Source: an uncultured Elusimicrobiales bacterium
Lineage (GTDB): Bacteria > Elusimicrobiota > Elusimicrobia > Elusimicrobiales > Elusimicrobiaceae
Length of the DNA: 64,000 bases
NCBI GenBank assembly: GCA_944326725.1
Contig: CALVFA010000010.1
Location: 1 to 64,000 of the forward strand
Direction of reading: 5' to 3'
Position numbers and translations under genes: made by a program. Shown piece by piece: positions 2,642 through 16,312 of the stretch. Within the stretch, counting starts at the first letter, position 1; every line of letters begins with the position of its first letter. Below the pieces are notes generated by a model, which saw nothing but the letters and a program-made list of their open reading frames with translations, ran no database searches and had not been told where the DNA came from.

Positions 2642-3157
2642 TTAATAACCGCCCTTATAAGAGAATAAACCGCCCAACGCACTGCCCATTTGGGACCACA
2701 GGCTGGGACGCAAACGGTTGGCGCGGCGGTATTGCTGCGCCTGGGTACGGTATTGCTGCGCCTGCAAAGAGGCGGAGGTGTTGTTTTCATACATGGCGCG
2801 CTCCATATTCTCATTAAGCAGTTCCTGGTCTAACAAAGCGTTTAAGCGGCTGTTTTTTAAAATCATTTGCGCCGTGGCGGAGGCACTGCCCAACCCGCTG
2901 GCGGCCAGGGCGGTTTTTTGCTGTCCCTGCAAAGAAGCATAATCACGCATCAGCTGTGTATTTTGATAGGCCGCATCTTCAAAAATATATTCGGAATTGC
3001 GGCGGGCGGTTTCTTCCGTCTGGCGGGCCTGCGCTTCGGCGGTGGCCGCCATAGACTGATAATAATCGTTTTCCGCCTTGTCACTGCCCAGCAATGACGC
3101 GGCAGTAGACAAAATAGTTCCTCCGGTAAATAAAACGCCTCCTATGGCTCCTCCCAT
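2642..3157 (-). CDS. Internal virion core protein, T7 gp14-like
   Basis: 171 residues. The N-terminus (MGGAIGGVLFTGGTILSTAA) is a Gly/Ala-rich hydrophobic segment. The rest is a long Gln/Ala/Glu-rich helix with Tyr-Gln and Ala-Gln repeats, ending GGLFSYKGGY. This layout and size match the gp14-type core proteins that help form the conduit for DNA ejection. I chose the start at 3157 because AAGGAGAG lies seven bases upstream; the frame stays open further upstream, but that part overlaps the gp13-like gene. It begins one base after the stop of the gp13-like gene. The family call rests on composition and order, not on strict motifs. Confidence 0.6.
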   Translation of the reverse strand: MGGAIGGVLFTGGTILSTAASLLGSDKAENDYYQSMAATAEAQARQTEETARRNSEYIFEDAAYQNTQLMRDYASLQGQQKTALAASGLGSASATAQMILKNSRLNALLDQELLNENMERAMYENNTSASLQAQQYRTQAQQYRRANRLRPSLWSQMGSALGGLFSYKGGY

Positions 3158-3158
3158 A

Positions 3159-3671
3159 TTAACTCTCCTTATCTGTGAATATACGCCCCGCAGGGGCGGT
3201 AAAAAAATACGGCACGAAGCGGGTTTCTCTTCCCGCCAAATAAAATTTCTCTCCGGCTTGCCGCGCACCCAAACGCCGCAAATAATGCAGGGCAACGGCG
3301 TAACGCTCATCACACGCGGCGTATAAAAAAGGGTACTGCGCCTGAAACGCCGCCAATACTTTCCGTGACGCACGCCAAAAAGATATCGGGCACTGCTCTA
3401 CGGCCTGCCCCGTCCAGGACCACACACACGCCCGCTGCCCAAGCCAAGTCTGCGCTTCCACCCCAGCCGCTGCGGCTACACGGCCTTTGTACACTAAAGC
3501 CACCGCCTGGGCAGAACGTTTAAAACAAAGCTCCAGCCCCTGCCGCACAGGCAAACGGTACGCGGCCCACATTTCCGCTCTATCCTGTCGGCGCAGTGTG
3601 CGGCTGAGGCCGTCTAAATGTTCTTTACAAAGCGGTTCTAAACTAATATCATGAGATAAGAAACTTTGCAT
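3159..3671 (-). CDS. Internal virion protein, T7 gp13-like (acetyltransferase-like fold)
   Basis: About 170 residues. The N-terminal part (DGLSRTLRRQDRAEMWAAY) and the C-terminal part (ALHYLRRLGARQAGEKFYLAG) resemble the gp13 family of T7-like phages, which look like degenerate GNAT acetyltransferases and are needed for assembly of the internal core. The gene keeps the T7 order, between gp12-like and gp14-like genes, although a plus-strand gene has been inserted upstream. The start is uncertain: ATG at 3671 and ATG at 3689 are both in frame, and neither has a good ribosome-binding site. The 5' end overlaps the promoter and leader of the divergent plus-strand gene, so the two may interfere in transcription. 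Confidence 0.65.
   Translation of the reverse strand: MQSFLSHDISLEPLCKEHLDGLSRTLRRQDRAEMWAAYRLPVRQGLELCFKRSAQAVALVYKGRVAAAAGVEAQTWLGQRACVWSWTGQAVEQCPISFWRASRKVLAAFQAQYPFLYAACDERYAVALHYLRRLGARQAGEKFYLAGRETRFVPYFFTAPAGRIFTDKES
3624..3652 (+). promoter_or_regulatory. Sigma-70-type promoter of the phage moron
   Basis: TTTACA (3624-3629), a 17-bp spacer and TATCAT (3647-3652), each one base from consensus. It lies inside the 5' part of the oppositely oriented gp13-like gene, about 35 bp upstream of the plus-strand gene at 3688, with a good ribosome-binding site between. Confidence 0.65.
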
Positions 3672-3687
3672 ACTAAAAGGAGAAAAC

Positions 3688-4443
3688 ATGATTTGGATTA
3701 TATTACTGCTCCTGCTTGGAGCCGCTGTTCTGTACGGCATTTTCTTTTTGTTTTTTAAATTGGTTTGGGTTTTATGTAAAAAACAGCGCAATTTTTGGCC
3801 GCTGATTTTAGCCGGGGCGGCTACACTGCTGACCGTAGGAGGATTGATTTTTTCCATCGTTTATACCGGCAACAAACTTCTTAAACCGCTGTGGCCTATT
3901 GTTGAAACGATACAGACCCGCACGGAGCCGGTATATGGTTCTCAGCTTTATGTAGACCCCACCTATGGGTTTAGCATTATGCTTTATAACGGTACTGTGT
4001 TAAGCGATTGGATCAACTGGAAAGGAAATTCCGTTTTAGTAGGATTGGACACCAATGTTAAATTTTCCCAACAACAAGACCAGGACGACATACCGTTTAC
4101 TTTTCTGATCATCGGACGTCGGCCGAATGTAGACACCGATCAGGATGCGCATGTTTTGTTGCAACAGCTTATACAACAGATTAATAATTCAGACTCAGAC
4201 GTCCAATTAAGCTTTAGTGACATTAGCCAGGCATATGTCGGTCCCGGAGCCACTGCCGCCCGCGTGACTGGAAGTATTGATAGTGACGGGCCCGTCATTT
4301 TGTTTACGCTGCTGCTTTGCAGACAGGGCAGCGATATGTTTTTTGTAGCCGCAAGCACCTCGCAAAATAACCCGGTAACAGATTACATGATAAACAGTTT
4401 CCGTTTAAAAGGAGCTCCTGTTCTGCCGACTCCCATACAATAG
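3688..4443 (+). CDS. Membrane-anchored moron protein of the prophage
   Basis: 251 residues, read against the direction of the surrounding phage genes. Residues 2-25 and about 38-60 are membrane segments. The remaining ~185 residues form a soluble domain, probably outside the cytoplasm, with the pattern DPTYGFSIMLYNG...W, alternating strands, and a final MFFVAAS...SFRLKG. This recalls the Mog1/PsbP/DUF1795 fold, but that is only a visual impression. AAAAGGAG lies seven bases before the ATG. It has its own promoter and rho-independent terminator, the hallmark of a moron expressed in the lysogen. Such genes often encode superinfection exclusion or change the host surface; no function can be assigned here. 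Confidence 0.8.
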   Translation: MIWIILLLLLGAAVLYGIFFLFFKLVWVLCKKQRNFWPLILAGAATLLTVGGLIFSIVYTGNKLLKPLWPIVETIQTRTEPVYGSQLYVDPTYGFSIMLYNGTVLSDWINWKGNSVLVGLDTNVKFSQQQDQDDIPFTFLIIGRRPNVDTDQDAHVLLQQLIQQINNSDSDVQLSFSDISQAYVGPGATAARVTGSIDSDGPVILFTLLLCRQGSDMFFVAASTSQNNPVTDYMINSFRLKGAPVLPTPIQ

Positions 4444-4478
4444 GCTGTCCGCTCACATTCTATCTAAAAAAGCAGTAA

Positions 4479-4507
4479 AGCGCCCGGCCTCTGCCGGGCG
4501 TTTTTTA
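4479..4507 (+). terminator. Rho-independent terminator after the moron
   Basis: Stem CGCCCGGC / GCCGGGCG with a four-base loop (4481-4500), followed by six T. It ends four bases before the stop codon of the convergent tail tubular B gene. Confidence 0.9.
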
Positions 4508-4510
4508 TCC

Positions 4511-7117
4511 TCAGCAAAGCCGGGTAATAACCGCCAGCAGCGTAACGGGCAGCGGATCATCTTGCACAAAAGTAACAGACGGAAAATACTGATGTGAAGC
4601 TGGCAAAAGGCGGACATAATCGCACGTTTGCAGCGGGGCCGGCTGGGCATAGCTGGAAGCTGCTTCCCCAATCAGGCGGTCCAATTGGCCCTCACCAACG
4701 CCCACTTTCCCGCCGCGGCTGTCTAAGACTTTGAGCATCACCTGCACTGGGCGGCGTTTGCGGTCTTGCTGGGTGCCGTCTGTAAGCATATAATCGGGCG
4801 GCAATGTCTGCATAGTAGCCTGGTAAGGCAGCCCGGCGTGGGCGGTATGCACCGCCGCGGGAAGCACAATTTTGCCGTCCTCTACCACCAGGTCCGTCAG
4901 CGGGCTGCCGTCTGCCAGCACGCAGAGCGTGCACCTTTCCAAATGATCCAGTCCACTTATTTCTGTAAAAGAGTCCGTACTTTTTTTGGACACACTGCAG
5001 TCCAAAAACACTTGATCCTCTGGCTCTTTGCTGGTCAGGCGCGCCAGCAGCCGCTCCACACAGCGCACGCCGTCACGCTCCACCAGCAGCCAGGTTTCGT
5101 CATACCCCTGCGAGGGAATACTGCACACGCTGATAAATTTGCCTTGCGTTTCATGGCGCGTCCACGCAAAAATATCTTCCTCCGGCAAATAAGTCAGCGA
5201 AAGCAATTTGCCGTCCCCCAGCACACACCAAATTAAATTATCCGGCTCCTGCTGGTAGGCCATTTCTTTGATTTCCTGGTTGAAAAACAAATGACGGGCC
5301 CGCAGCGTCAAGTCCCGCCCGGTATAAGAAGCGGTGCTGTACTGATAATAAAAATCCCGCAGCACGCTGCCGCGCGACTGCACAAACAAAGTCCGGTTGC
5401 CCACCACAATAGGCGGCACGCGGCTGGCCCCGCGCTCTCCTTCCTGGTGGATTTCAATGTTATACGGAGTCAGCGCCCCGGAACAACCCAAACTCCACTC
5501 ACTGCCGGCGGTAAACACCAACAGTTTGGCGCCGACGGCTACGGAATTAATAGCATTTAATTTTTTGCCGGAAAGCGTCAGGCTGATGGCGTCGGAATCT
5601 TCCAGCGTGCGCAAATAACCGAAGTCTTCATATTCCCCGGTTTTGGAAAACCAAATGGTCTGCGGCTCTTTATTGCTGCCGGCAAAGCCCAATCTGTCCT
5701 GATAGAAAAACACACAGCTGGGATAACCCGACTGCGGACTAAAAGACCCTTCCGACCAATCAAATGTCCAAGCCTCGTCCTCTCCGGCCGGGCGCTCTAT
5801 GCTCACTTGCATTTTTTGTGCATTGACGTAATTTTGCGTCTTAACAATCCCTTCCTGGTAGAAAGAGTCCGCCTGCAGCACATAGCCCATTTCCCCGCTG
5901 ATTGTCTGACAGCGAATGCGCACATAATACATCTTGGCAGACACTTCCAAACTGCCCAGCGTATTTAAATTCTCTTCGTCTTGGGCTTTGGTAAAATGCT
6001 TCACTTTTTCCCAGGTGACATTGTCGGTAGAAGATTCCAAAACAATTTCCCCGTACCAGCTGCCCGTCGTGCGCAGGCGCCAGTCGCCGCTGGTTTTAAT
6101 CACCTTGGACACATCTTCATAAGCCAGCGTACCGCTTTCAGAAGGGCTTTCCACCCGGTGCCGCAGTGCAAACAATGCCCCCACCTGTGCAGGCGCAAAG
6201 GCGTTAAAATCCGCCTCCAAATACCATTTAGTTTCTCCTTGGCTGATAACCTCCCCGGCATTGCAGCCGCCGCTTAACGCATGCGTAACAATCAAATTCG
6301 GCGGGGCCACAATCCCCTGGCGGTAATAAATCATCAGCTCGGCCCCGTTAAAATCTCCGCCGGTTTCCTTAGGGGACTCTATACGCAGCACCCCGCCCTG
6401 GTTATAGGCTTGGCATCCCTCTGCACTGCAGCGCAGGTTAAAGGCGTATACCACTTCTTCTACATTAAATCCGTAATTGCTGGCGCTATAAAAATGCACC
6501 CCTTTCCAATAGGCCTGAATGAAATAGTTCGGGTAACTGACCGGCAAAAAAGACAGCGTGGCCCGCACCCCTTCAGACACGACGGTATCGCTTTTGCTGA
6601 CCAAGCGCATCTTTTTGGTTTCGTCGGTATTGGCCAGCATAAACGGACCGTCCTTAATGGTCATATCCGAAAGCGTAAAATAGCCGTCTGCGCCGCGCAC
6701 CAGTTTCTTGGGATAATACTTAGGGTGCACCAAAAACAAGGTTTGCTGGTACTGCACATACTGTACATCAGCCAAATCATACTCCGTATACGGGCACTCC
6801 AATTCATACACTAAGCCGTCCTCGTCAAGCAGCGTTCCCGCCGGGGCGTGCACCCGCATATATTCATGGCCCAGCTCCAACACATAGGCCTCTTCTTCCC
6901 CCAGCACAAACGGAATTAAGCGCGCATTTTTATTGCTATATTTAGCACTGGCTACATAGGCCGTACCGGGCCGGTTGGAAATACCCCCTTGCGGGTGGAC
7001 AAAGAAATTACAGGCCGTCTTTAACCAAGCGCCCTGCCCCTGGGCAGAAGCCTGGCTATAGAGGTGCGGGCTTATTTCCCCGCCGGAAAAATTGGTCTGT
7101 ATGGCATGGATAGGCAT
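4511..7117 (-). CDS. Tail tubular protein B, T7 gp12-like (tail nozzle)
   Basis: 868 residues, close to the usual size of about 800. The N-terminus has the family signature: FSGGEISPHLYSQ, ACNFFVHPQGGISNRPGT and the LIPFVLGEEEAYVLELG block. The middle and C-terminal parts contain the beta-rich propeller segments, including YPSCVFFYQDRLGFAGS, found in gp12-type nozzle proteins that extend the portal channel. I chose ATG 7117 because GGAGG lies upstream and the conserved family N-terminus begins there; the frame is open for 18 more codons within the preceding gene. It begins one base after the stop of tail tubular A. Confidence 0.93.
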   Translation of the reverse strand: MPIHAIQTNFSGGEISPHLYSQASAQGQGAWLKTACNFFVHPQGGISNRPGTAYVASAKYSNKNARLIPFVLGEEEAYVLELGHEYMRVHAPAGTLLDEDGLVYELECPYTEYDLADVQYVQYQQTLFLVHPKYYPKKLVRGADGYFTLSDMTIKDGPFMLANTDETKKMRLVSKSDTVVSEGVRATLSFLPVSYPNYFIQAYWKGVHFYSASNYGFNVEEVVYAFNLRCSAEGCQAYNQGGVLRIESPKETGGDFNGAELMIYYRQGIVAPPNLIVTHALSGGCNAGEVISQGETKWYLEADFNAFAPAQVGALFALRHRVESPSESGTLAYEDVSKVIKTSGDWRLRTTGSWYGEIVLESSTDNVTWEKVKHFTKAQDEENLNTLGSLEVSAKMYYVRIRCQTISGEMGYVLQADSFYQEGIVKTQNYVNAQKMQVSIERPAGEDEAWTFDWSEGSFSPQSGYPSCVFFYQDRLGFAGSNKEPQTIWFSKTGEYEDFGYLRTLEDSDAISLTLSGKKLNAINSVAVGAKLLVFTAGSEWSLGCSGALTPYNIEIHQEGERGASRVPPIVVGNRTLFVQSRGSVLRDFYYQYSTASYTGRDLTLRARHLFFNQEIKEMAYQQEPDNLIWCVLGDGKLLSLTYLPEEDIFAWTRHETQGKFISVCSIPSQGYDETWLLVERDGVRCVERLLARLTSKEPEDQVFLDCSVSKKSTDSFTEISGLDHLERCTLCVLADGSPLTDLVVEDGKIVLPAAVHTAHAGLPYQATMQTLPPDYMLTDGTQQDRKRRPVQVMLKVLDSRGGKVGVGEGQLDRLIGEAASSYAQPAPLQTCDYVRLLPASHQYFPSVTFVQDDPLPVTLLAVITRLC

Positions 7118-7118
7118 A

Positions 7119-7706
7119 TTAACGGGCCTCCACAAAAGCGCTCTCTGCGCGGTGTACATCAAAACGCTCACTCATATTGCTGCGCCGGGCTTCGTCCAAA
7201 ACCAACGTATATTTTTGCAATACCGTGTGCGCCAATGTGCTGTCCCCCGTCAGAGCCACCGCCAAATCCGCCGCTAAGGCCAGGGAAAACGCTTTCACAA
7301 AGGCCGGATCAAACAGGCTTTCATCGTTTACATCGCGCGTATATTCGGCCCGGGCCTGTTCTATACCTGATAAAATCACCCTGGCATGCAAATCCTGGTT
7401 AAACACCTCTTTAAACGCGCCGTCCCGCCCTTTGGGGCCAGCGGCAAATACCCTGCGCAGGAACAGACAATCCTGCGGATACGCATACATATACGGCCAT
7501 TGAGGGCCGCCGTCCCCTGCCAGCAAAGCCAGCGAAATCTGGCTGCCTGCAAAAGCCCAATTATGGGTACGGAGCACCTCTTTTTTCACTGGTTCATAAA
7601 ACAGACTGCAGCGGCGGGCGCGCTCATCTTCCTGTCCCAAAGAAGAAATAGGCTCCTGTCCTAAATGAGCCAAAGCTATATTACAAATGTCTAATTTTGA
7701 TACCAT
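7119..7706 (-). CDS. Tail tubular protein A, T7 gp11-like (head-tail adaptor)
   Basis: 195 residues, the usual family length. The start MVSKLDICNIALAHLGQEP and the following E.ARRCSLFYEPVKKEVLR helix, then the HNWAFA stretch, are diagnostic of gp11/gp4-type adaptors that form a ring under the portal. AGGAG lies seven bases before the ATG. It is the first gene after the 1.24-kb non-coding region, so it probably heads a separate late transcript running through gp12, gp13, gp14 and the tail fibre. Confidence 0.93.
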   Translation of the reverse strand: MVSKLDICNIALAHLGQEPISSLGQEDERARRCSLFYEPVKKEVLRTHNWAFAGSQISLALLAGDGGPQWPYMYAYPQDCLFLRRVFAAGPKGRDGAFKEVFNQDLHARVILSGIEQARAEYTRDVNDESLFDPAFVKAFSLALAADLAVALTGDSTLAHTVLQKYTLVLDEARRSNMSERFDVHRAESAFVEAR

Positions 7707-7719
7707 TTTATGCTCCTAT

Positions 7720-7980
7720 TTTAATTTATATTAAAATTTAAGTGTTTTTATAATTTATATTTTTATAAAAATATACAATGTATTTTAAAAATTATTATTT
7801 TTTAATTATTTTTAAAATAATATACATTTTTTTAGAAAACATATTTTATGTATTTTTTAAATTTTTTCATTATTTTAAAAATTATATTTAATTTTAAAAA
7901 TACTTAAATTTTAATGATTTTCAAAATCATACATATTTTTTAAAAACAGAAAACATATCTGTTTTTAATAGACTAAACAT
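7720..7980. other. Extremely AT-rich tract with small palindromes
   Basis: About 260 bp with almost no G or C, built from TTTTAAAAAT-like words. Palindromes include ATGATTTT-c-AAAATCAT near 7914 and AAAACAG...CTGTTTT near 7945-7965. Such a tract could be an easily melted replication origin, a promoter region or a nucleoid-protein binding site. The sequence alone does not decide. Confidence 0.6.
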
Positions 7981-8345
7981 TTGATCCCTCTTTCCCCTCT
8001 GCGGCAGACAAAAGCCCCATTTTCCATATACAAAGCCCTCAGAAAAACTAAATTTTGCTCTTTTGGGCCCTATTTTTAGTTCATTTTGGACAATTTCCGC
8101 CTCTAAACGGGCGTTTAAAGCCCTAGGGTAGGTAGGTGCTAGGATAAAACGGCTAAACTGCCTGTAAAAAAGGCTTTTCCCCTTTATTTTTCATCTACAA
8201 ACCCCAAGGCTTGGCCGCTTACTGCCATTTCTTTAAAAGTTATCCATTCATTTTTAGCACAAACAAAGCCCCGCGGTTTGCCTTTCCTGCCCTGATGATA
8301 TTTCTTGGAAAGTTGCTCATTTATTTTAATTTCCAAGATTCCGCT

Positions 8346-8515
8346 CTCTGCCCTTTACCATTTCGCGGAATGTTGCTCATAGACGACATAAACGCCATGC
8401 CGGATAACCTCTGCCCTTTACCATTTCGCTGGAAGTCTCCCATAGACGACATAAACGCCATGCCGGATAACCTCTGCCTTTACTACTATTTCTTGGAATG
8501 TCGGCCCATTTTTTA
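8346..8515. repeat. 63-bp tandem repeat, two copies plus a degenerate third
   Basis: Copies start at 8346 and 8409 with a period of 63 bp. They share CTCTGCCCTTTACCATTTCGC and, later, CATAGACGACATAAACGCC, ATGCCGGATAACC. The third copy (8472-8515) keeps only the beginning (CTCTGCCTTTA...ATTTCTTGGAATG). Weaker relatives occur upstream (8210-8330) and downstream (8525-8580, 8700-8770). Confidence 0.85.
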
Positions 8516-8908
8516 AAAGTTGCACCGCCTGCCTCTCCGCCACTTGCTGATATTTCTTTTGGAAAACATTCCTTTTATTTGAATTTTCGGGGTTTGGATT
8601 TCCGCCGATTTTTAGTAATTCTCGGCATTTGTTCCCCGGTTATTTTGGCTTAAATCAAGTCTTGCGCCAGGATATCCAGCACTTATTTACCGAATAAGCC
8701 CCGCTCTTGGCCTTCTGCGACTATCTAGAAAGAGCCTCCTTTATTTTTCGCCCAGCGGTTGGATTTTCGGCGTTTTGTGGCTATTTCTCATTTGATTTTT
8801 ACTTGAATAAAGCTAAAGCCAAACAAAAGACGGATTTTGTTTTCTGCAAAGCGCCAAACCACGGGAAAATACTTCCTCTTTTAAACCTGCTGATAAAAAT
8901 ATAAGGGG

Positions 8909-8940
8909 ACGGGGCGCGGGCAGAAGCAAGCGCGCCCCGT
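8909..8940 (-). terminator. GC-rich hairpin after the cement gene, possible terminator
   Basis: Perfect 10-bp stem ACGGGGCGCG / CGCGCCCCGT with a 12-base loop. It lies five bases after the stop codon of the minus-strand cement gene. The T-rich stretch on the minus strand follows only after about ten bases, so termination efficiency is uncertain. Confidence 0.5.
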
Positions 8941-8945
8941 AGGGG

Positions 8946-9323
8946 TTACATATCTACTTCGTCGGTAATAAACAGCGAGATTTTGCCCGCCGTTGCCGTA
9001 CCGCTGACGGTATAATAGCCGCGGATATAGCGCAAAGCACCCGCCGGCAAGACCATTTTAAACAAGGCCTTGCCGCTCTTTAAATCCGCCAAAGCAAACG
9101 ACGCAGACAAAAGCTCCGTCGGCTGGCTGAAGCTCTCTGCGGCGGAAGTTTGCAGGCTGATTTTCAGATTGCTCAAGCCGGCAAAATCTTCGTCGGCTTG
9201 AGCTACGACCACCAGGCGGTGATGCGCGTCGGCGGCCGCCGTTTGGTCAATGATATGTTCAGACGCGGCGGAAGAAGTAATTTTCTGCTGGTCTGAAAGA
9301 ACTAACGTGGAATCAATCAACAT
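8946..9323 (-). CDS. Capsid cement protein, Bbp16-like
   Basis: 125 residues, starting MLIDSTLVLSDQQKITSSAAS and containing the NLKISLQTS core and a C-terminal LRYIRGYYTVSGTATAGKISLFI beta pattern (split here as LRYIRGYYTVSG and TATAGKISLFI). This matches the small decoration proteins of the Bbp16 family, which sit on the capsid surface of Bordetella phage BPP-1 and relatives. It lies immediately downstream of the major capsid gene, as expected. AAGGAG lies upstream of the ATG. A strong hairpin in the intervening leader may tune its expression relative to capsid. Confidence 0.8.
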   Translation of the reverse strand: MLIDSTLVLSDQQKITSSAASEHIIDQTAAADAHHRLVVVAQADEDFAGLSNLKISLQTSAAESFSQPTELLSASFALADLKSGKALFKMVLPAGALRYIRGYYTVSGTATAGKISLFITDEVDM

Positions 9324-9475: not shown

Positions 9476-10453
9476 TTAAGCCACCACGTCTTCGGTGTCT
9501 TCAATAGCGTCGCAGATATGGACGGGGATTTCGTTAAACGTCATCAGCGGGCGGGACGTAATCTGGTCCGGCGTGTACTGGACGTTTTGCTTGTTGCTGG
9601 TCAGCTTGCGCAAAGCGGCCTTGACGGTGCGGTTCATATACCAGAACGGCTTGCCCAAGTTCAGGCTCTGGATACGCTCTTCCAATTCGCACATATTGTC
9701 AATCAAGCTGGCAGGCACATTTTTGACATCAATGTTGCAAATGCGCCCGGCGTAGCGCCAATCCTGTACGGCAAGGCCCATTTTCCATTCAAAATATTCT
9801 TTGTAGGCAGGGTATTCGTTGCCGTCGGAGTCAATATGATTAACCAAGCCGTGGTCCACACGCTGGATACCGGCTTTGGAGCCTTTGGGGAAGAATGTGA
9901 ACACTTTGTCCGTATCCCATACCACCAAATAAATGGAAGAGTTCTGTCCGTCCGTCTCGCCGCCGGCGTCAATGACATTGCGCGCGCTTTCCGCGTCGGT
10001 CAGCGTGTTATAGCGCGCGGCCAGGCCGGTAAAGCGTTCCGGTGTTTCCCCGGCGTTGCCGTAAATGAGGTTGCGCGCCATCGTGTTGGACATACCGGCA
10101 ATAATCGCCTTGCTCTGCCCGGTGCGCACAGACTGCAAGTTGCCGCCTTTTTCTGCGATGAGTTTATCCACCACCGAATAGGCAGAGAGCGTGCCGTAGC
10201 TTTCCACCACCACTTTGGTAGTGGCTTTGGCCGGCTCAATGCCTTGGTAGGCGCGGCGCCAGGTGCCTTCGGGGATACCGGTGCGCACGGCGTATTCGTG
10301 ACCGCTGTCTAAGTTGCTTTCCGTTACCAGCGCATCGCCAATAATGTCATTGGACTTGCTGAGCACCTCAGCAATAGCCAACTCTTGACCGGATTGGTCA
10401 AACTGTTTGGCATAGTCCATCAGGTTGTAATATTTATCTGCAATGATTGCCAT
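9476..10453 (-). CDS. Major capsid protein (HK97-fold type)
   Basis: 325 residues, a normal size for phage capsids of this class. It begins MAIIADKYYNLMDYAKQ. The segments LAIAEVLSKSNDIIGDA, GHEYAVRTGIPEGTWRR and NIDVKNVPASLIDNMC match the major capsid family found with Bbp16/Bbp17-type phages. It follows the scaffold gene and precedes cement, the standard order. AAAGGA is present but about 14 bases before the ATG, a longer spacing than usual; the conserved N-terminus still favours this start. Confidence 0.88.
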   Translation of the reverse strand: MAIIADKYYNLMDYAKQFDQSGQELAIAEVLSKSNDIIGDALVTESNLDSGHEYAVRTGIPEGTWRRAYQGIEPAKATTKVVVESYGTLSAYSVVDKLIAEKGGNLQSVRTGQSKAIIAGMSNTMARNLIYGNAGETPERFTGLAARYNTLTDAESARNVIDAGGETDGQNSSIYLVVWDTDKVFTFFPKGSKAGIQRVDHGLVNHIDSDGNEYPAYKEYFEWKMGLAVQDWRYAGRICNIDVKNVPASLIDNMCELEERIQSLNLGKPFWYMNRTVKAALRKLTSNKQNVQYTPDQITSRPLMTFNEIPVHICDAIEDTEDVVA

Positions 10454-10504: not shown

Positions 10505-11110
10505 TTACTGCGCTTTTCCGTACAACGCCTCGGCAAAAGTCTTGTCTGCAGTGGCGCGCACGCGCCCGGACACAGACGTGTCTTCTGCGATTTGTTGGCT
10601 GATTTGATGAAACGTCTTTACCACCGCCGGGTGGCTGCCCAGCCCCGTAGCGTCAAGCAGTGCACGCAGCTCCGGCCCGCCAAAACGCTCCGCCGCCGCC
10701 AAAGCGCGGGCCACTTCCTGTTGGTAGCCCGGGCCAAAAAGCTGGCGGGTTTGCTCCGTCCACCGCTGCAAAATTTGCGCCCGCGCATACTGCGCGTTTT
10801 GGCGTCCGTCCGCAGCGGCTTTGCTTTCCCACTCCACCAGTTTTTTTGCGGCTTGGGCAGGCAGTTTTAGCTCAGAGGCCAGTTTTTTAAACGACGCAAA
10901 ATTTTCTTCGCAGCCGTTTAACTCTTCCGGCAGTTTCAGGTCTGGGTATAGGCCGGCAGGCAAAGAAGTTTCCGCCGGGTTATTTTCGTTTGGCCTATCG
11001 GAGGCAGAGGCGTCCTCTGCGCCGCTGGGCCCGGGGCAGACTTGTGCAGTCTGCGCCGTTTGTAAATCGGATTGTGCCGCTGGGGAAGCGGTGTTATTCT
11101 CTTCAGACAT
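10505..11110 (-). CDS. Head scaffolding protein
   Basis: 201 residues, acidic and Ala/Glu-rich. The N-terminal ~60 residues look disordered. The central part (KLASELKLPAQAAKKLVEW) and the C-terminal block FGGPELRALLDATGLGSHP followed by FHQISQQIAED are characteristic of podovirus scaffolding proteins that direct procapsid assembly and leave before maturation. The start ATG overlaps the end of the Bbp19-like gene by eight bases and has GAGGA upstream, suggesting translational coupling. Confidence 0.82.
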   Translation of the reverse strand: MSEENNTASPAAQSDLQTAQTAQVCPGPSGAEDASASDRPNENNPAETSLPAGLYPDLKLPEELNGCEENFASFKKLASELKLPAQAAKKLVEWESKAAADGRQNAQYARAQILQRWTEQTRQLFGPGYQQEVARALAAAERFGGPELRALLDATGLGSHPAVVKTFHQISQQIAEDTSVSGRVRATADKTFAEALYGKAQ

Positions 11111-11411
11111 TGTGCATTTCCTCGCTTTGGCGGTTAATTTCGTTTTGCTGGGAAGTGACTTCAGACAAATACTCCGCCTGCATCTGCGCCAAAATCAGCG
11201 GCGAAATTTCCGCAATTTGTTCCTGCAAAAAAAGACCAATGCTCTTCTGTCCGCAATGAAACGCGGTGGAGCATGGGTCCCCGGGCACAAAACCATGCCC
11301 GCTCACTTGGGCCGCCTGCAGCACACGCCACAGCAGCCGCCTGCCTTGCGGCAGTTTTAAAACGGCGGCCAAATCGGCCGCGTTGCGTTTTTCTAGTGTT
11401 TTTTTCTTCAT
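11103..11411 (-). CDS. Bbp19-like phage protein
   Basis: 102 residues. The segment DLAAVLKLPQGRRLLWRVL and, later, HCGQKSIGLFLQEQI with PLILAQMQAEY match the Bbp19 family, small proteins encoded beside the scaffold in BPP-1-like phages. Their exact role is not known; association with head assembly is inferred from position. No clear ribosome-binding site precedes the ATG. The 3' end overlaps the scaffold start. Confidence 0.75.
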   Translation of the reverse strand: MKKKTLEKRNAADLAAVLKLPQGRRLLWRVLQAAQVSGHGFVPGDPCSTAFHCGQKSIGLFLQEQIAEISPLILAQMQAEYLSEVTSQQNEINRQSEEMHNV

Positions 11412-11741: not shown

Positions 11742-13325
11742 TTACTGTGTGCCGGCCTTTGCTGCCGCTTCGGCGGCCTGCGCCTGCAAAAGCTGTTGGC
11801 GTTGGGCACGCAGTTGGGCTGTTTCTTCATCGGAGCGGAGCACCCGCGGCGGCACTCCCAGCATATCCAGTCCTTCTTCCAGCGCGGCGTCAAAATTAAT
11901 TTTATCCAGTACCTGCGGGTTACCTTGCGCCAAATTGCTGGTAAACGCAATGCCTTGCTGTAAGGCCGCCATACCGCTTTGTTTCTGCGCTTGTGCTATC
12001 ATAGAAACGTATTGCACTTTCATATCGTGTCCCTGTATCTGCGCCGGCGGCAGCGGGATAACGCCCCGCCGAAGCATAATGGCAAAGGTGCGTTCTATCA
12101 AAGGGTCCAACAGCTCGTTTTTCAGCCGCTCCAACACCGGCCCCAGCACCAGCATTTTTTCCTGGTGCCGCTCCGCCACTTCGGTAGCGGTCATATTGGA
12201 AAAGTTCTGCGCGCTGAGCATTAAAAATACATCAGCAAAAAATTGCCCCTTAATGGTTTGTTTTACGCGCTCTATGCTCTGCTCCAATGCGTTTAGATCC
12301 ACCGGCACTTGGTAGGCGGGCTTGACGGCTCCGTCTGAGCCGCTGCCGCTGTAGCGCGTCAGGCCGCCGGGCAGCAGGTTGACTTCCCCCTGCACATTGG
12401 CAGATACCATCATAGGCGGGTTGGTGTTTTTGTCCAGCGCCACCAGTTTGGTCTTTTGCATTTTTTGCAGCATTTTTACATCGCCCAACGCTTTCCAGCC
12501 GGGGCCGCGGCCGTATATGTCGCTGCTGTTGCGCACTTCCCAGCGCGCGGCAATAACCGGGAATTCGCGGTATCCTCCGCGGCGCAGCATTTCCCCCTGC
12601 GGCGTAAAATAGGCCGAAAGATAGGGCATATGCGCCACGTCTAACTTGCGCTCGTCAGCCTGCGGATTGGGCAAAATAACGTGCACTACTTTAAACCAAC
12701 CGCCGCGCTTTTCCTGCGCCGCGCGGCGCACAGAAAGGGGCAGCGCGTCCAAACCAAATTGATTCTGCATTTGCTCCGGCGTCATCCAAAATTCCCGCCC
12801 GAAGCTGTTTATGCGCCCTTTCCCGTCACAATCCAGCACATATTCCCCGGCGGTAAACGCCCGGCAGCAGAGTACGCGGTCCATGTCTTCTTCCAGCAGA
12901 AAAGCCGCCGTACCAAAGACGGAAATTTCCTGATAAAAACTGTGCAAAGTATTGTAAACATTTGACCGCGCAAATACCTCTTCCATACGGCGGCGCACTT
13001 CATGCAGCCAGGTGCGCACGCCGGGCTGTTTCATCAGCTGCCCGTTGGAAAGGCTCAGCTCAAACCAGCTGCGGCTGGGGCTGGTCAGCCCAGACACCAT
13101 ACCCGCGCTGAGTACTTCTACTGCCAGCAGCGGGTCGGAATCTATCAGGGTACGGTGGTCTATCTTGCGCCCGTCGGAAGGGCGGTCCCCATCAAAAAAG
13201 CCGCGCGTCGGCGCGATATATTTGGCCAACTCCTTCCAAGTGCTTTGCCATGTTTGCGCTTGGGATTTCATATCTTCGTAGCGGGTGCGGAAAAAATCCG
13301 CCTGTTGCGTATCGTTTGCGTTCAT
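11742..13325 (-). CDS. Portal protein (head-tail connector, T7 gp8-like)
   Basis: 527 residues, the usual size. Family features include WKELAKYIAPTRGFFDGD near the N-terminus, LAVEVLSAGMVSGLTSPSR, the wing and stem region around WKALGDVKMLQKMQKTK, and the C-terminal TATEVAERHQEKMLVLGPV block. These mark the dodecameric connector through which DNA enters and leaves the capsid. The protein ends in an Ala/Gln-rich tail. It sits between terminase and the scaffold-capsid genes. The nearest strong promoter on its strand is 600 bp upstream at 13.95 kb. Confidence 0.93.
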   Translation of the reverse strand: MNANDTQQADFFRTRYEDMKSQAQTWQSTWKELAKYIAPTRGFFDGDRPSDGRKIDHRTLIDSDPLLAVEVLSAGMVSGLTSPSRSWFELSLSNGQLMKQPGVRTWLHEVRRRMEEVFARSNVYNTLHSFYQEISVFGTAAFLLEEDMDRVLCCRAFTAGEYVLDCDGKGRINSFGREFWMTPEQMQNQFGLDALPLSVRRAAQEKRGGWFKVVHVILPNPQADERKLDVAHMPYLSAYFTPQGEMLRRGGYREFPVIAARWEVRNSSDIYGRGPGWKALGDVKMLQKMQKTKLVALDKNTNPPMMVSANVQGEVNLLPGGLTRYSGSGSDGAVKPAYQVPVDLNALEQSIERVKQTIKGQFFADVFLMLSAQNFSNMTATEVAERHQEKMLVLGPVLERLKNELLDPLIERTFAIMLRRGVIPLPPAQIQGHDMKVQYVSMIAQAQKQSGMAALQQGIAFTSNLAQGNPQVLDKINFDAALEEGLDMLGVPPRVLRSDEETAQLRAQRQQLLQAQAAEAAAKAGTQ

Positions 13326-13433: not shown

Positions 13434-13613
13434 ATGGGATCTGTTATTTTGATTTTGGTATTTGCCGCTTTGGTAGGGTTTCCGGGGTTTTATATTATTA
13501 CCCGCAAGGTATTTAAAGGCGGCAGCCGCAAAGCGGCGCTTTGGTTGTCTGCACTGGTCACACTGTTGTTGGTAGTTGTGCTGGCTGTAGTGATGGCGGG
13601 GGCTCCGCTGTAA
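13434..13613 (+). CDS. Small two-helix membrane protein in the prophage
   Basis: 59 residues, MGSVILILVFAALVGFPGFY at the start, with a second hydrophobic helix in the C-terminal half; Lys/Arg residues lie between. GGGAGGG sits a few bases before the ATG at 13434; an in-frame start 30 bases upstream (13404) lacks one. It is transcribed opposite to its neighbours, between portal and terminase. Size and two-helix topology would suit a holin-like or superinfection-exclusion protein, but no motif supports either. The minus-strand frame across the same bases is longer but has an implausible Gln/Arg/His-rich composition. Confidence 0.5.
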   Translation: MGSVILILVFAALVGFPGFYIITRKVFKGGSRKAALWLSALVTLLLVVVLAVVMAGAPL

Positions 13614-14309: not shown

Positions 14310-15629
14310 TCACAGCACTTCATATTCCGTACGGGCAAACTCTCCGCTGCCGCGGCCTATTTTTCTCACAGGCAAGGCAAATGTCAGCGCCAGCGCGTCA
14401 GCCAAATCAGGGCTGCGGCCGCTGCGGGCTTTAAGCTCGTCTTTGCTCTCCAGCTTCAGCCGCCCGGCCGCGTCAAAACCATAGCGCACACCGCATAAAT
14501 CTGCCTTGAGCTCCGCCAACGCAGGCAACGCGCCGCCGGCTTGCAGCCATTGCTGCATTTCCCCCCACATTTCGGCGCGTTTATTGGCGTATTGGCCGGC
14601 TTTGAGCGGGGTGGAACCGAAGTGGATTTCCGTCACGCAAAACCCCAGCTGGCGCAACCGGTCTATCACGCCGCCGCCGCAGCCGGCGTCTATAAAAACC
14701 GCGTCCGGGCGGAAGGCCTCTATTTCCTGCGCGGCGCGGGCGGCTAAGGTCATATGGTCGGTTTTATGCAGTACTACCGGCGCAAAAGCCTGCAGACCCT
14801 GCCGCTTGAAAATAACGCTGCGGTCCGCCCCAAAACGCGCAGGGTCCACCCCCACAATTTTGGGCGCGTGGGCAACTTCGGCCCCGCCGTATTGCCGCGC
14901 ACACGCCTGGGACACCAAAGAAGAGGATATCAACACATCTTCCGCATCCGCCGTAAAATCGCACAAATACTCCTGCCTAAACAAATGCTCCGGCGTGCGG
15001 CGGCGGATTTCCTCCAGCTCCTGCGGCGAAATAACCCCCGTTTCATCGGCGGGAAATACACCGCACCACCAGCTCTCTCCGTCCTGCTGGGCGGCTTTGC
15101 GGGCATAGTTGTAAAGTTCGTAAAATTGATTTTGCCCCTTAGGCGTGCCCGTAAACAGCACCCAGCCGCCGCGCGAAAGCAACATAGGCCGCACGATTTC
15201 ATCAAACACGTCGGGTTTGATTTGGGCGTATTCGTCCAGCACCACTCCGTCGGCATAGGTGCCGCGCAGCGCGTCTGGATTATCGGCCCCCAACAGCCAA
15301 ATTTTGGCGCCGCTAGGCAGCTGGACGCAAAGCTCCGTTTCAGAAAGCTTCACCCCCGGCAGTGGAGCGCTGAAACATTTGACATAATCCCAAGCGATTA
15401 GTTTGGTCTGTTTTAAAAACGGAGCAATATAAAAATAGCGCGGCGCCGGGCGGGAGCACAACAGCGCGCTTTTAAGCAGATGATTGACTGCACAAACGGT
15501 TTTACCCATTTGTCGGTGCGTGACCAACACGCAAAAGCGGTGCGTTTCCAATGCCTGGTGAATTAGCGTCTGCGGATATCGCGGTTTATACGGAATAGTA
15601 ACACAAGCCGAAGCAGTTTTCTTTTTCAT
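14310..15629 (-). CDS. Terminase large subunit
   Basis: 439 residues, the ATP-driven DNA-packaging motor. The ATPase domain has a Walker A variant RQMGKT (residues 39-44), Walker B GVVLDEYAQ near residue 130 and the coupling motif FTGTPKG. The C-terminal nuclease domain has VGVDPARFGADRS, VFIDAGCGGGV and the final SPDLADALALTFA, which supply its acidic metal ligands. The start overlaps the end of the small subunit gene by four bases. The gene lies upstream of portal, unlike T7 itself but as in BPP-1-like phages. Confidence 0.95.
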   Translation of the reverse strand: MKKKTASACVTIPYKPRYPQTLIHQALETHRFCVLVTHRQMGKTVCAVNHLLKSALLCSRPAPRYFYIAPFLKQTKLIAWDYVKCFSAPLPGVKLSETELCVQLPSGAKIWLLGADNPDALRGTYADGVVLDEYAQIKPDVFDEIVRPMLLSRGGWVLFTGTPKGQNQFYELYNYARKAAQQDGESWWCGVFPADETGVISPQELEEIRRRTPEHLFRQEYLCDFTADAEDVLISSSLVSQACARQYGGAEVAHAPKIVGVDPARFGADRSVIFKRQGLQAFAPVVLHKTDHMTLAARAAQEIEAFRPDAVFIDAGCGGGVIDRLRQLGFCVTEIHFGSTPLKAGQYANKRAEMWGEMQQWLQAGGALPALAELKADLCGVRYGFDAAGRLKLESKDELKARSGRSPDLADALALTFALPVRKIGRGSGEFARTEYEVL

Positions 15630-16312
15630 TCTTTCTCCCAGCGCACCACCAGCGGGCCCGCCGCCGCGGGCGGCTCGTTTTTACCGTCACTCCACCCCAA
15701 AATGTTCTTGGCGGTAAATACGGCAAAAGAAGAAGAATAATTCCCCCGCAGGCTGTTTTGAATTAAAATATCCCCCTGCAAATCCCGCGCTTTTTTGGCG
15801 GCTTCGGCAAAATCCGAGTGCTTTTCTTCCCATTGCAGCAGCACCGCCTGCGTCACCCCCAAACTGCGCGCAAAAGCCGCAAAGGTAGGAAGCTCGGCGG
15901 CGGTTTCCAGCAAACTGACTGAGCCGTCTTTTTTGGTCACCTCAGTTACAGTAAACGGAGCTACGTCAAAAAACGCCAGCAAACGCTGGCAATACTGCGG
16001 GTTATAGGCAGGAGCTTGGCGTCCCGTTTGGCGTTTTACGGCGCCTTTTTGGCGCGTTTTAGCCGGTTTGGAAGCGGCCTTGCCGGAAATGGCTGGGGAG
16101 GAGGTTTTGGACAAATGTTTTTTGACGGCAGACATTGGGGAAGGAAGTTTTTCGCAAACCGGGATTTGAAACAGCAGTTCCTGCCCAGGCCCCGGCTGAG
16201 AGCCCGCAATTTGCTCTTTTATACTAGGGGCAGAAAGCGCCGCTTCCCTCCCGGGCAATTCCTGCTTCTCCAATGCAGAAGAGGACGCCGACTTGGTAGA
16301 TTTTTTATTCAA
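15626..16312 (-). CDS. Terminase small subunit
   Basis: 228 residues with a TTG start, chosen because AGGAG lies at the right distance upstream and no better ATG exists. The first ~100 residues are low-complexity Ser/Lys/Pro-rich, an unusual extension. The conserved part begins near residue 125: a helix-turn-helix-like segment (FAAFARSLGVTQAVLLQWEE) and the C-terminal block ILIQNSLRGNYSSSF followed by FTAKNILGW, typical of gp3-type packaging proteins that recognise phage DNA. It is the first gene after a perfect promoter at 16.5 kb and is coupled to the large subunit. Confidence 0.88.
   Translation of the reverse strand: MNKKSTKSASSSALEKQELPGREAALSAPSIKEQIAGSQPGPGQELLFQIPVCEKLPSPMSAVKKHLSKTSSPAISGKAASKPAKTRQKGAVKRQTGRQAPAYNPQYCQRLLAFFDVAPFTVTEVTKKDGSVSLLETAAELPTFAAFARSLGVTQAVLLQWEEKHSDFAEAAKKARDLQGDILIQNSLRGNYSSSFAVFTAKNILGWSDGKNEPPAAAGPLVVRWEKE

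Follow-up and report, generated by a model that had tools for sequence, protein, structure and literature searches.

Gene X, a 251-residue open reading frame on the forward strand (3688–4443, ATG start) of the window (the 64 kb stretch of an Elusimicrobiaceae contig analysed here as a whole), appears to belong to a domesticated podovirus-type element, of which it would be the cell-side component. Its product is predicted to be a membrane protein with two transmembrane helices and a PsbP/Mog1-fold domain, probably periplasmic, and the gene lies, as first described, between the gp12-like and gp13-like genes of a head–tail cluster transcribed in the opposite direction. In one genome of the same genus the virion and lysis genes have been lost in place while X and a second small membrane-protein gene, s13404, have been kept. 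We propose, at a little under an even chance, that X may be the exclusion or immunity component of the element, with s13404 as its partner.

The virion genes of the cluster occupy the reverse strand. From the contig end inwards, they encode the N-terminal 339 residues of a fibre that is cut by the contig end (1–1019; 82% identical to the fibre of genome G044), a fast-evolving protein at the gp15 position (1016–2632), gp14-like (2642–3160) and gp13-like (3159–3671; phrog_308) internal virion proteins, a gp12-like tail nozzle (4511–7171), a gp11-like tail protein (7119–7706; phrog_394), a phrog_427 protein of unassigned role (8946–9323), the major capsid protein (9476–10453), a scaffold/protease-like protein (10505–11110; phrog_458), a conserved small head-region ORF of 102 residues (11103–11411), the portal (11742–13325; Head-tail_con), terL (14310–15629) and a terS-like protein (15626–16312). 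In relatives, the cluster continues beyond the fibre with an endolysin gene that codes for an M15-type peptidase in some species and a phage lysozyme in others (L021:8983–9399; L039:14283–14777), followed by a holin-like and an Rz-like ORF that have no Pfam match and were named by eye and position; none of these lysis genes falls within the window. The whole cluster measures ∼18 kb in G044. Type II secretion genes, pilin-like proteins, trigger factor and tRNAs flank it on one side and, in G044, pilins, Wzy, SPFH/NfeD, OmpA and a fatty-acid-synthesis gene on the other. With genes for head, tail, packaging and lysis, the cluster resembles a defective prophage, and no replication or integration genes were found among the cluster genes and the profiled flanks; both features are those of a GTA locus (as defined in PMC8987985).

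Among the 66 genomes of Candidatus Avelusimicrobium, a gut genus of the Elusimicrobiota, gp12 is present in 64, the match listed for G047 being a diverged prophage copy and the gp12 of its cluster starting at a contig end. The capsid is found in 62 of the 66 congeners (61 full-length copies at 84–100% identity and one fragment) and in none of the 24 genomes from five other genera of the family; its named relatives are Elusimicrobiaceae MAGs, many of them apparently from animal gut, including Candidatus Avelusimicrobium excrementipullorum and UBA1436. Identity to the window copy follows that of the host gene T2E, with Spearman coefficients of 0.88 for the capsid and 0.91 for gp12, compared with 0.85 between two host genes; these figures omit fragments of TF and gp12. 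Trees of the 38 genomes with complete gp12 and T2E have 22 of 35 splits in common between host (T2E) and cluster, against a mean of 0.24 and a maximum of three when names are shuffled, and show no strongly supported conflict (FastTree); gp12 alone shares 25 of 35 splits with the host. No cluster gene has a dN/dS ratio above 0.32 in any of the five genome pairs, where computable, with synonymous sites near saturation in G051/G048. On these comparisons, the cluster has been vertically inherited since the genus ancestor under purifying selection.

The cluster adjoins the same secretion genes in six genomes, including that of the window, and in others terL and portal lie up to 11 kb apart, partly through ChaN/Tiki-family genes, a separation that a phage genome would hardly tolerate. 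IMG/VR contains one capsid relative at 66% identity, with the other 22 all at 40% or below, and no capsid relative above about 41% occurs among the matches listed for INPHARED (0 of 90 at ≥60%). Two integrase-bearing prophages of the same morphogenesis type, G063:C9 (L144/L105/L143) and G049:C2 (L104/L142), carry neither X nor s13404 and are likely to be living relatives of the cluster's ancestor. We regard the cluster as a domesticated podovirus-type element that is probably a GTA and possibly a PBSX-like killer particle; it resembles a GTA locus, and the production of particles and the transfer of DNA are predictions from gene content. Virion proteins of alphaproteobacterial GTAs show a low-carbon bias; the amino-acid carbon of the virion proteins of the cluster is no lower than in two true prophages.

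RcGTA-type elements are siphovirus-like, unlike the present cluster with its T7/BcepC6B-like genes and a capsid nearest to that of BcepC6B (40% identity), and PBSX differs from the cluster in tail type and hosts. With the RcGTA-type elements of Alphaproteobacteria, the cluster has in common that it is a vertically inherited head–tail cluster that is easily called a prophage (PMC6821227). PBSX of Bacillus subtilis, which PMC12946183 counts among GTA-like elements, is a possible analogue if the particles kill instead of deliver. The closest parallel is FpGTA of Faecalibacterium, presented by its authors as the first GTA-like element with a podovirus-like morphology (PMC12946183), so that the Avelusimicrobium cluster would be a further podovirus-type GTA-like element, in another phylum. 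Both combine a podovirus-type terS–terL–portal–scaffold–capsid set with lysis genes, and both are near-ubiquitous in a gut genus. FpGTA is arranged in two operons in a different phylum, its particles carry about 8.5–9 kb of DNA and its gene description, as excerpted, mentions no opposite-strand membrane genes (PMC12946183), whereas the Avelusimicrobium cluster, whose particles are predicted, includes X and s13404. Among the matches listed from open-licence papers, there was no report of a GTA or of this cluster in Elusimicrobiota, and no counterpart of a cell-side partner like X or s13404 in any GTA.

X itself was originally thought to have no clear relatives, a view that does not hold, as it occurs in 56 of the 66 Candidatus Avelusimicrobium genomes, 55 besides that of the window; it is found in none of the 24 genomes from other genera of the family. 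In 51 of the 56 it lies opposite gp12, just past the gp12 3′ end and convergent with it; four of the remaining five have X and the gp12 of the cluster on different contigs and the fifth is G020, discussed below. X is cleanly missing from nine clusters (G003, G009, G023, G026, G029, G065, G030, G036 and G057), in which gp12 directly adjoins gp13 or gp14. Mapped on the 38 taxa, presence and absence require five to six changes that are no more clustered than random, which indicates repeated losses, and the nine clusters imply that producers do not always need X. The X tree has 14 of 28 splits in common with the host tree (31 taxa), against a mean below 0.25 for shuffled names, with no strongly supported conflict; there is one such conflict between the cluster tree and the X tree. 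Identity of X to the window copy again follows that of T2E (Spearman 0.83; 37 of the 55 relatives ranked, 33–34 paired). X thus appears to be as old as the cluster, reaching back to the genus ancestor. Its constant position in 51 genomes is what would be seen for a core virion component, but X is absent from nine clusters and retained without virion genes in G020, and for these reasons we take it not to be part of the virion.

The signals of an independent transcription unit were found where originally predicted. On the forward strand, a TTTACA element (3624–3629) is separated by 17 nucleotides from TATCAT (3647–3652), both within the gp13-like coding sequence; a putative ribosome-binding site, AAGGAG (3677–3682), precedes the ATG by five nucleotides, and a predicted intrinsic terminator (4477–4506; ΔG −24.2, z −3.5) ends four nucleotides before the gp12 stop at 4511. 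Promoter-type sites in the window number five against 2.7 expected in shuffles, which for the window alone is not beyond chance, and the promoter and terminator become convincing only through their conservation across loci. In 30 of the 32 X loci (two with less than 60 nucleotides upstream were omitted), the exact TTTACA-17-TATCAT arrangement recurs in 12, the window's included, with a TATGAT variant in one more, and the best −10 element is TATAAT in 13. The best promoter score upstream of X averages 9.96 against 6.4 in shuffles, and 17 of the 30 loci exceed the 95th percentile. In the window's clade (13 loci less the one without the motif), the gp13 codons beneath the promoter are invariant at synonymous positions: Asp GAT, Ser AGT and Cys TGT each occur in 12 of 12, the serine codon doing so against an AGT usage of 16%; the corresponding p-values are too small because the loci are related to one another. 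Synonymous sites of neighbouring genes diverge widely among genomes like these. A terminator 3′ of X was detected by a custom scan in 31 of 32 loci, compared with 0.2% of shuffles, with hairpin sequences that vary between clades; a standard pattern search overlooked that of the window, probably since A–T pairs prolong the stem into the T run.

The AlphaFold model of X (pLDDT 90.9, pTM 0.80; alignment of 28 homologues) has helices at residues 2–29 and 37–77 and, in keeping with the fold first suggested, a PsbP/Mog1-type domain at residues 83–243. A fold search with this predicted model gave CyanoP (PDB code 2xb3) as the best hit (Z = 13.6, r.m.s.d. of 3.1 Å over 144 residues), along with the type VI secretion immunity protein TplEi (5h7y; Z = 10.8, 3.6 Å over 140), the Eag chaperone SciW, which binds transmembrane segments (9mvg; Z = 10.3, 2.7 Å over 116), DcrB (6e8a; Z = 10.1, 2.7 Å over 112), the type VI secretion immunity protein Tsi3 (4luq; Z = 8.4, 3.5 Å over 115) and TiME (Z = 7.5), a comparison that covers chiefly the soluble domain and barely probes the membrane part. 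The fold is functionally promiscuous: the DcrB, TplEi/Tsi3, SciW/EagT6 and CyanoP/PsbP proteins have envelope, immunity or transmembrane-binding roles, and X differs from them in adding a two-helix membrane anchor and in a sequence identity of at most 18% in the aligned rows. Positive residues between the helices would place, by the positive-inside rule, the connecting loop inside the cell and the domain in the periplasm. No significant family was found for X in Pfam (where the window's protein matches none at its cut-off), PHROGs, NCBIfam, PDB sequences, INPHARED or IMG/VR, and no PADLOC model matched it. A profile of X ranks DcrB first in the PDB, weakly (E = 0.15), the DcrB family PF08786 being absent among the Pfam matches listed. 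X is under purifying selection (dN/dS of 0.14–0.25 in five genome pairs) and is, with the gp15-position gene, among the fastest-evolving genes. Two genomes, G041 and G047, carry it as a tandem duplicate. After correction for host distance, its divergence follows that of no particular virion gene (28 taxa; 18 for gp13 and gp15).

G020 provides a natural deletion. G034 has the order antiporter (which we take to be YfcC-like, as in G020), terS, terL, s13404 (reverse strand), portal, capsid, gp12, X (reverse strand), fibre, lysozyme, holin and pilin. In G020 the order is antiporter (91% identical to that of G034), pilin, s13404 and X (both reverse strand) and pilin (61% identical to that of G034). 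The locus is interior to an 89.7 kb contig, and X and s13404, both full length, keep their original order and strand with AT-rich DNA between them, as in the intact cluster. All genes co-transcribed with the late operon, virion and lysis genes alike, have been lost in place, which needs at least three separate deletions, and portal, capsid and gp12 were not found anywhere in this MAG (93% complete), the single assembly on which the operon loss rests. The G020 copy of X retains, by eye, a TATAAT box and a hairpin after the stop, and its pN/pS against three relatives (0.29–0.37) lies within the range among those relatives (0.17–0.37). A TATAAT lies a few bases before the X start in G020 (L103:9516–10295), L080 and L082, and this proximity to the start codon suggests a leaderless X transcript in that clade. 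G005 shows a different deletion, with portal residue 50 fused to residue 79 of the phrog_427 protein (g427) and s13404 and terminase kept; X was not found there, and as the locus reaches a contig end the deletion is claimed for portal–g427 only, a loss of the whole cluster being unsupported.

The companion gene s13404 (13434–13613, forward strand) encodes 59 residues with two predicted transmembrane segments and a PGFYIITRKVF motif. Like X it runs against the late operon, between terL and portal, and it is more widespread than X, with strong matches (E ≤ 5 × 10−9) in 62 of 66 congeners. The membrane hairpin of X aligns colinearly with s13404 over 55 columns at 72% probability, with weak sequence cross-matches. 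Promoter scores upstream of s13404 equal those of shuffles, terminators follow it in 29 of 48 loci and a promoter shared by the two genes was sought and not found.

On the reading that we favour, X would be expressed by cells in which no particles are being made, because its own promoter runs against the late operon. The protein would sit in the inner membrane, its PsbP/Mog1 domain meeting in the periplasm the ejection proteins of landing particles, and would block either delivery of their DNA or the damage done by it, with s13404 partnering it in that membrane. Once the late operon is on, read-through antisense to X would switch exclusion off in producers. Control over DNA delivery is suggested by the membrane location, the independent promoter and the envelope roles of the fold relatives, and retention of X after the producer machinery has been deleted implies that it serves the cell being hit and not the particle. 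Phage superinfection-exclusion membrane proteins offer a parallel in their predicted membrane location and in a promoter against the late genes, unlike X in being carried on mobile phage. A further version, to which we give a slightly lower probability, is that X and s13404 form a dedicated GTA exclusion (or reception) module of the recipient, kept by non-producers after deletion of the GTA genes.

If X gates the delivery of particle DNA, excluding is more likely than helping, the sign of the effect being a prediction. Immunity genes are often fast-evolving and tandemly duplicated, and DcrB-type proteins serve phages as host factors for entry; the rapid evolution and duplication of X lean towards blocking, whereas the resemblance to DcrB and the repeated losses lean towards helping. 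Such frequent loss would not be expected of a strict immunity gene against a lethal particle, and this counts against exclusion. An unlikely but serious alternative is that X, with s13404, is a recipient factor that helps particle DNA across the inner membrane, so that non-producers gain DNA without the cost of lysis. Retention in the non-producer G020 would suit such a factor, as would its fold relative DcrB, which a title in the literature names as controlling phage DNA injection (PMC7773334, PMC13136074), but the mode of evolution of X looks more like conflict and nine producers do without it.

If X were an ordinary envelope protein that came to reside in the cluster and had nothing to do with the particles, its persistence without virion genes would be explained, and PsbP/DcrB-type domains are common in envelope proteins; we nevertheless think this improbable, since 51 of 56 copies occupy exactly this spot and the X tree, like the cluster, dates back to the genus ancestor. 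A role as a lysis restraint or membrane regulator (antiholin-like or a signal sensor), active until induction and then shut off by late antisense transcription, is also rather improbable. The two-helix hairpin on the strand opposite the late operon would fit it, as would weak holin-profile matches to hydrophobic segments (9 of 28 X members with the Pfam profile, best E = 0.0012; five of 22 s13404 members with that of PHROGs, best E = 0.0086), but such a restraint would be useless without lysis genes, yet G020 keeps both genes, and the cluster ends in holin-like and Rz-like genes of its own. It is very improbable that X is a virion or assembly component: its place among the tail genes and its shared descent with the cluster would fit, but it has its own signals on the other strand, and it is missing from the true-prophage relatives as well as from nine clusters.

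The original prediction of a self-contained moron stands in so far as X appears to be an autonomous, non-virion unit running against the late operon, with a promoter and terminator of its own as read from the sequence; its other part, insertion into a temperate phage, is contradicted by the vertical descent of the cluster and by the lack of an integrase among the genes profiled. X is neither on a mobile temperate phage nor patchy among relatives as a moron would be, and it was absent from the viral collections searched (INPHARED, IMG/VR). The suggestion of superinfection exclusion still stands, as one of the two directions that the effect might take. Recent lysogenic conversion thus has little but the layout in its favour and is highly improbable, a recent, mobile origin being ruled out by tree agreement with the host across the genus.

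Two long-standing questions about GTAs are why producers that lyse persist and in what way recipients differ from them; a cost to producers and a benefit to recipients have been considered (PMC6209664). The present genus offers, at one locus, both an apparently domesticated podovirus-type cluster and a natural knock-out, G020, that keeps only two membrane genes. If X and s13404 gate particle entry, the costs and benefits of receiving GTA DNA could be tested with two small genes.

Several further features of the locus deserve mention. An AT-rich spacer between the phrog_427 and gp11 genes (7707–8945) is kept in position across the genus; in 41 loci it spans 0.44–1.24 kb and averages 72% AT, against 52% for the loci, and it may be a silencer, a late promoter or a packaging site. 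By eye, it contains recurring ATACTTAAATTTTAAGTATTT-like palindromes and, in the window, an imperfect direct repeat of about 60 bases (8340–8480). In G060, eight related ORFs of 269–502 residues lie between terL and s13404 (L032:3836–14369), with fewer of this type in G016 (L034) and G005 (L147:1315–2427); of the members profiled, three match the ChaN/Tiki haem-uptake family, two of these just under its cut-off, and one in G016 matched nothing. The capsids of the G063:C9 and G049:C2 prophages are 63–72% identical to the domesticated capsid. Profiles of ComP, a DNA-uptake pilin, match the pilins flanking the cluster (L021:10105–11281), which may point to a connection with DNA uptake.
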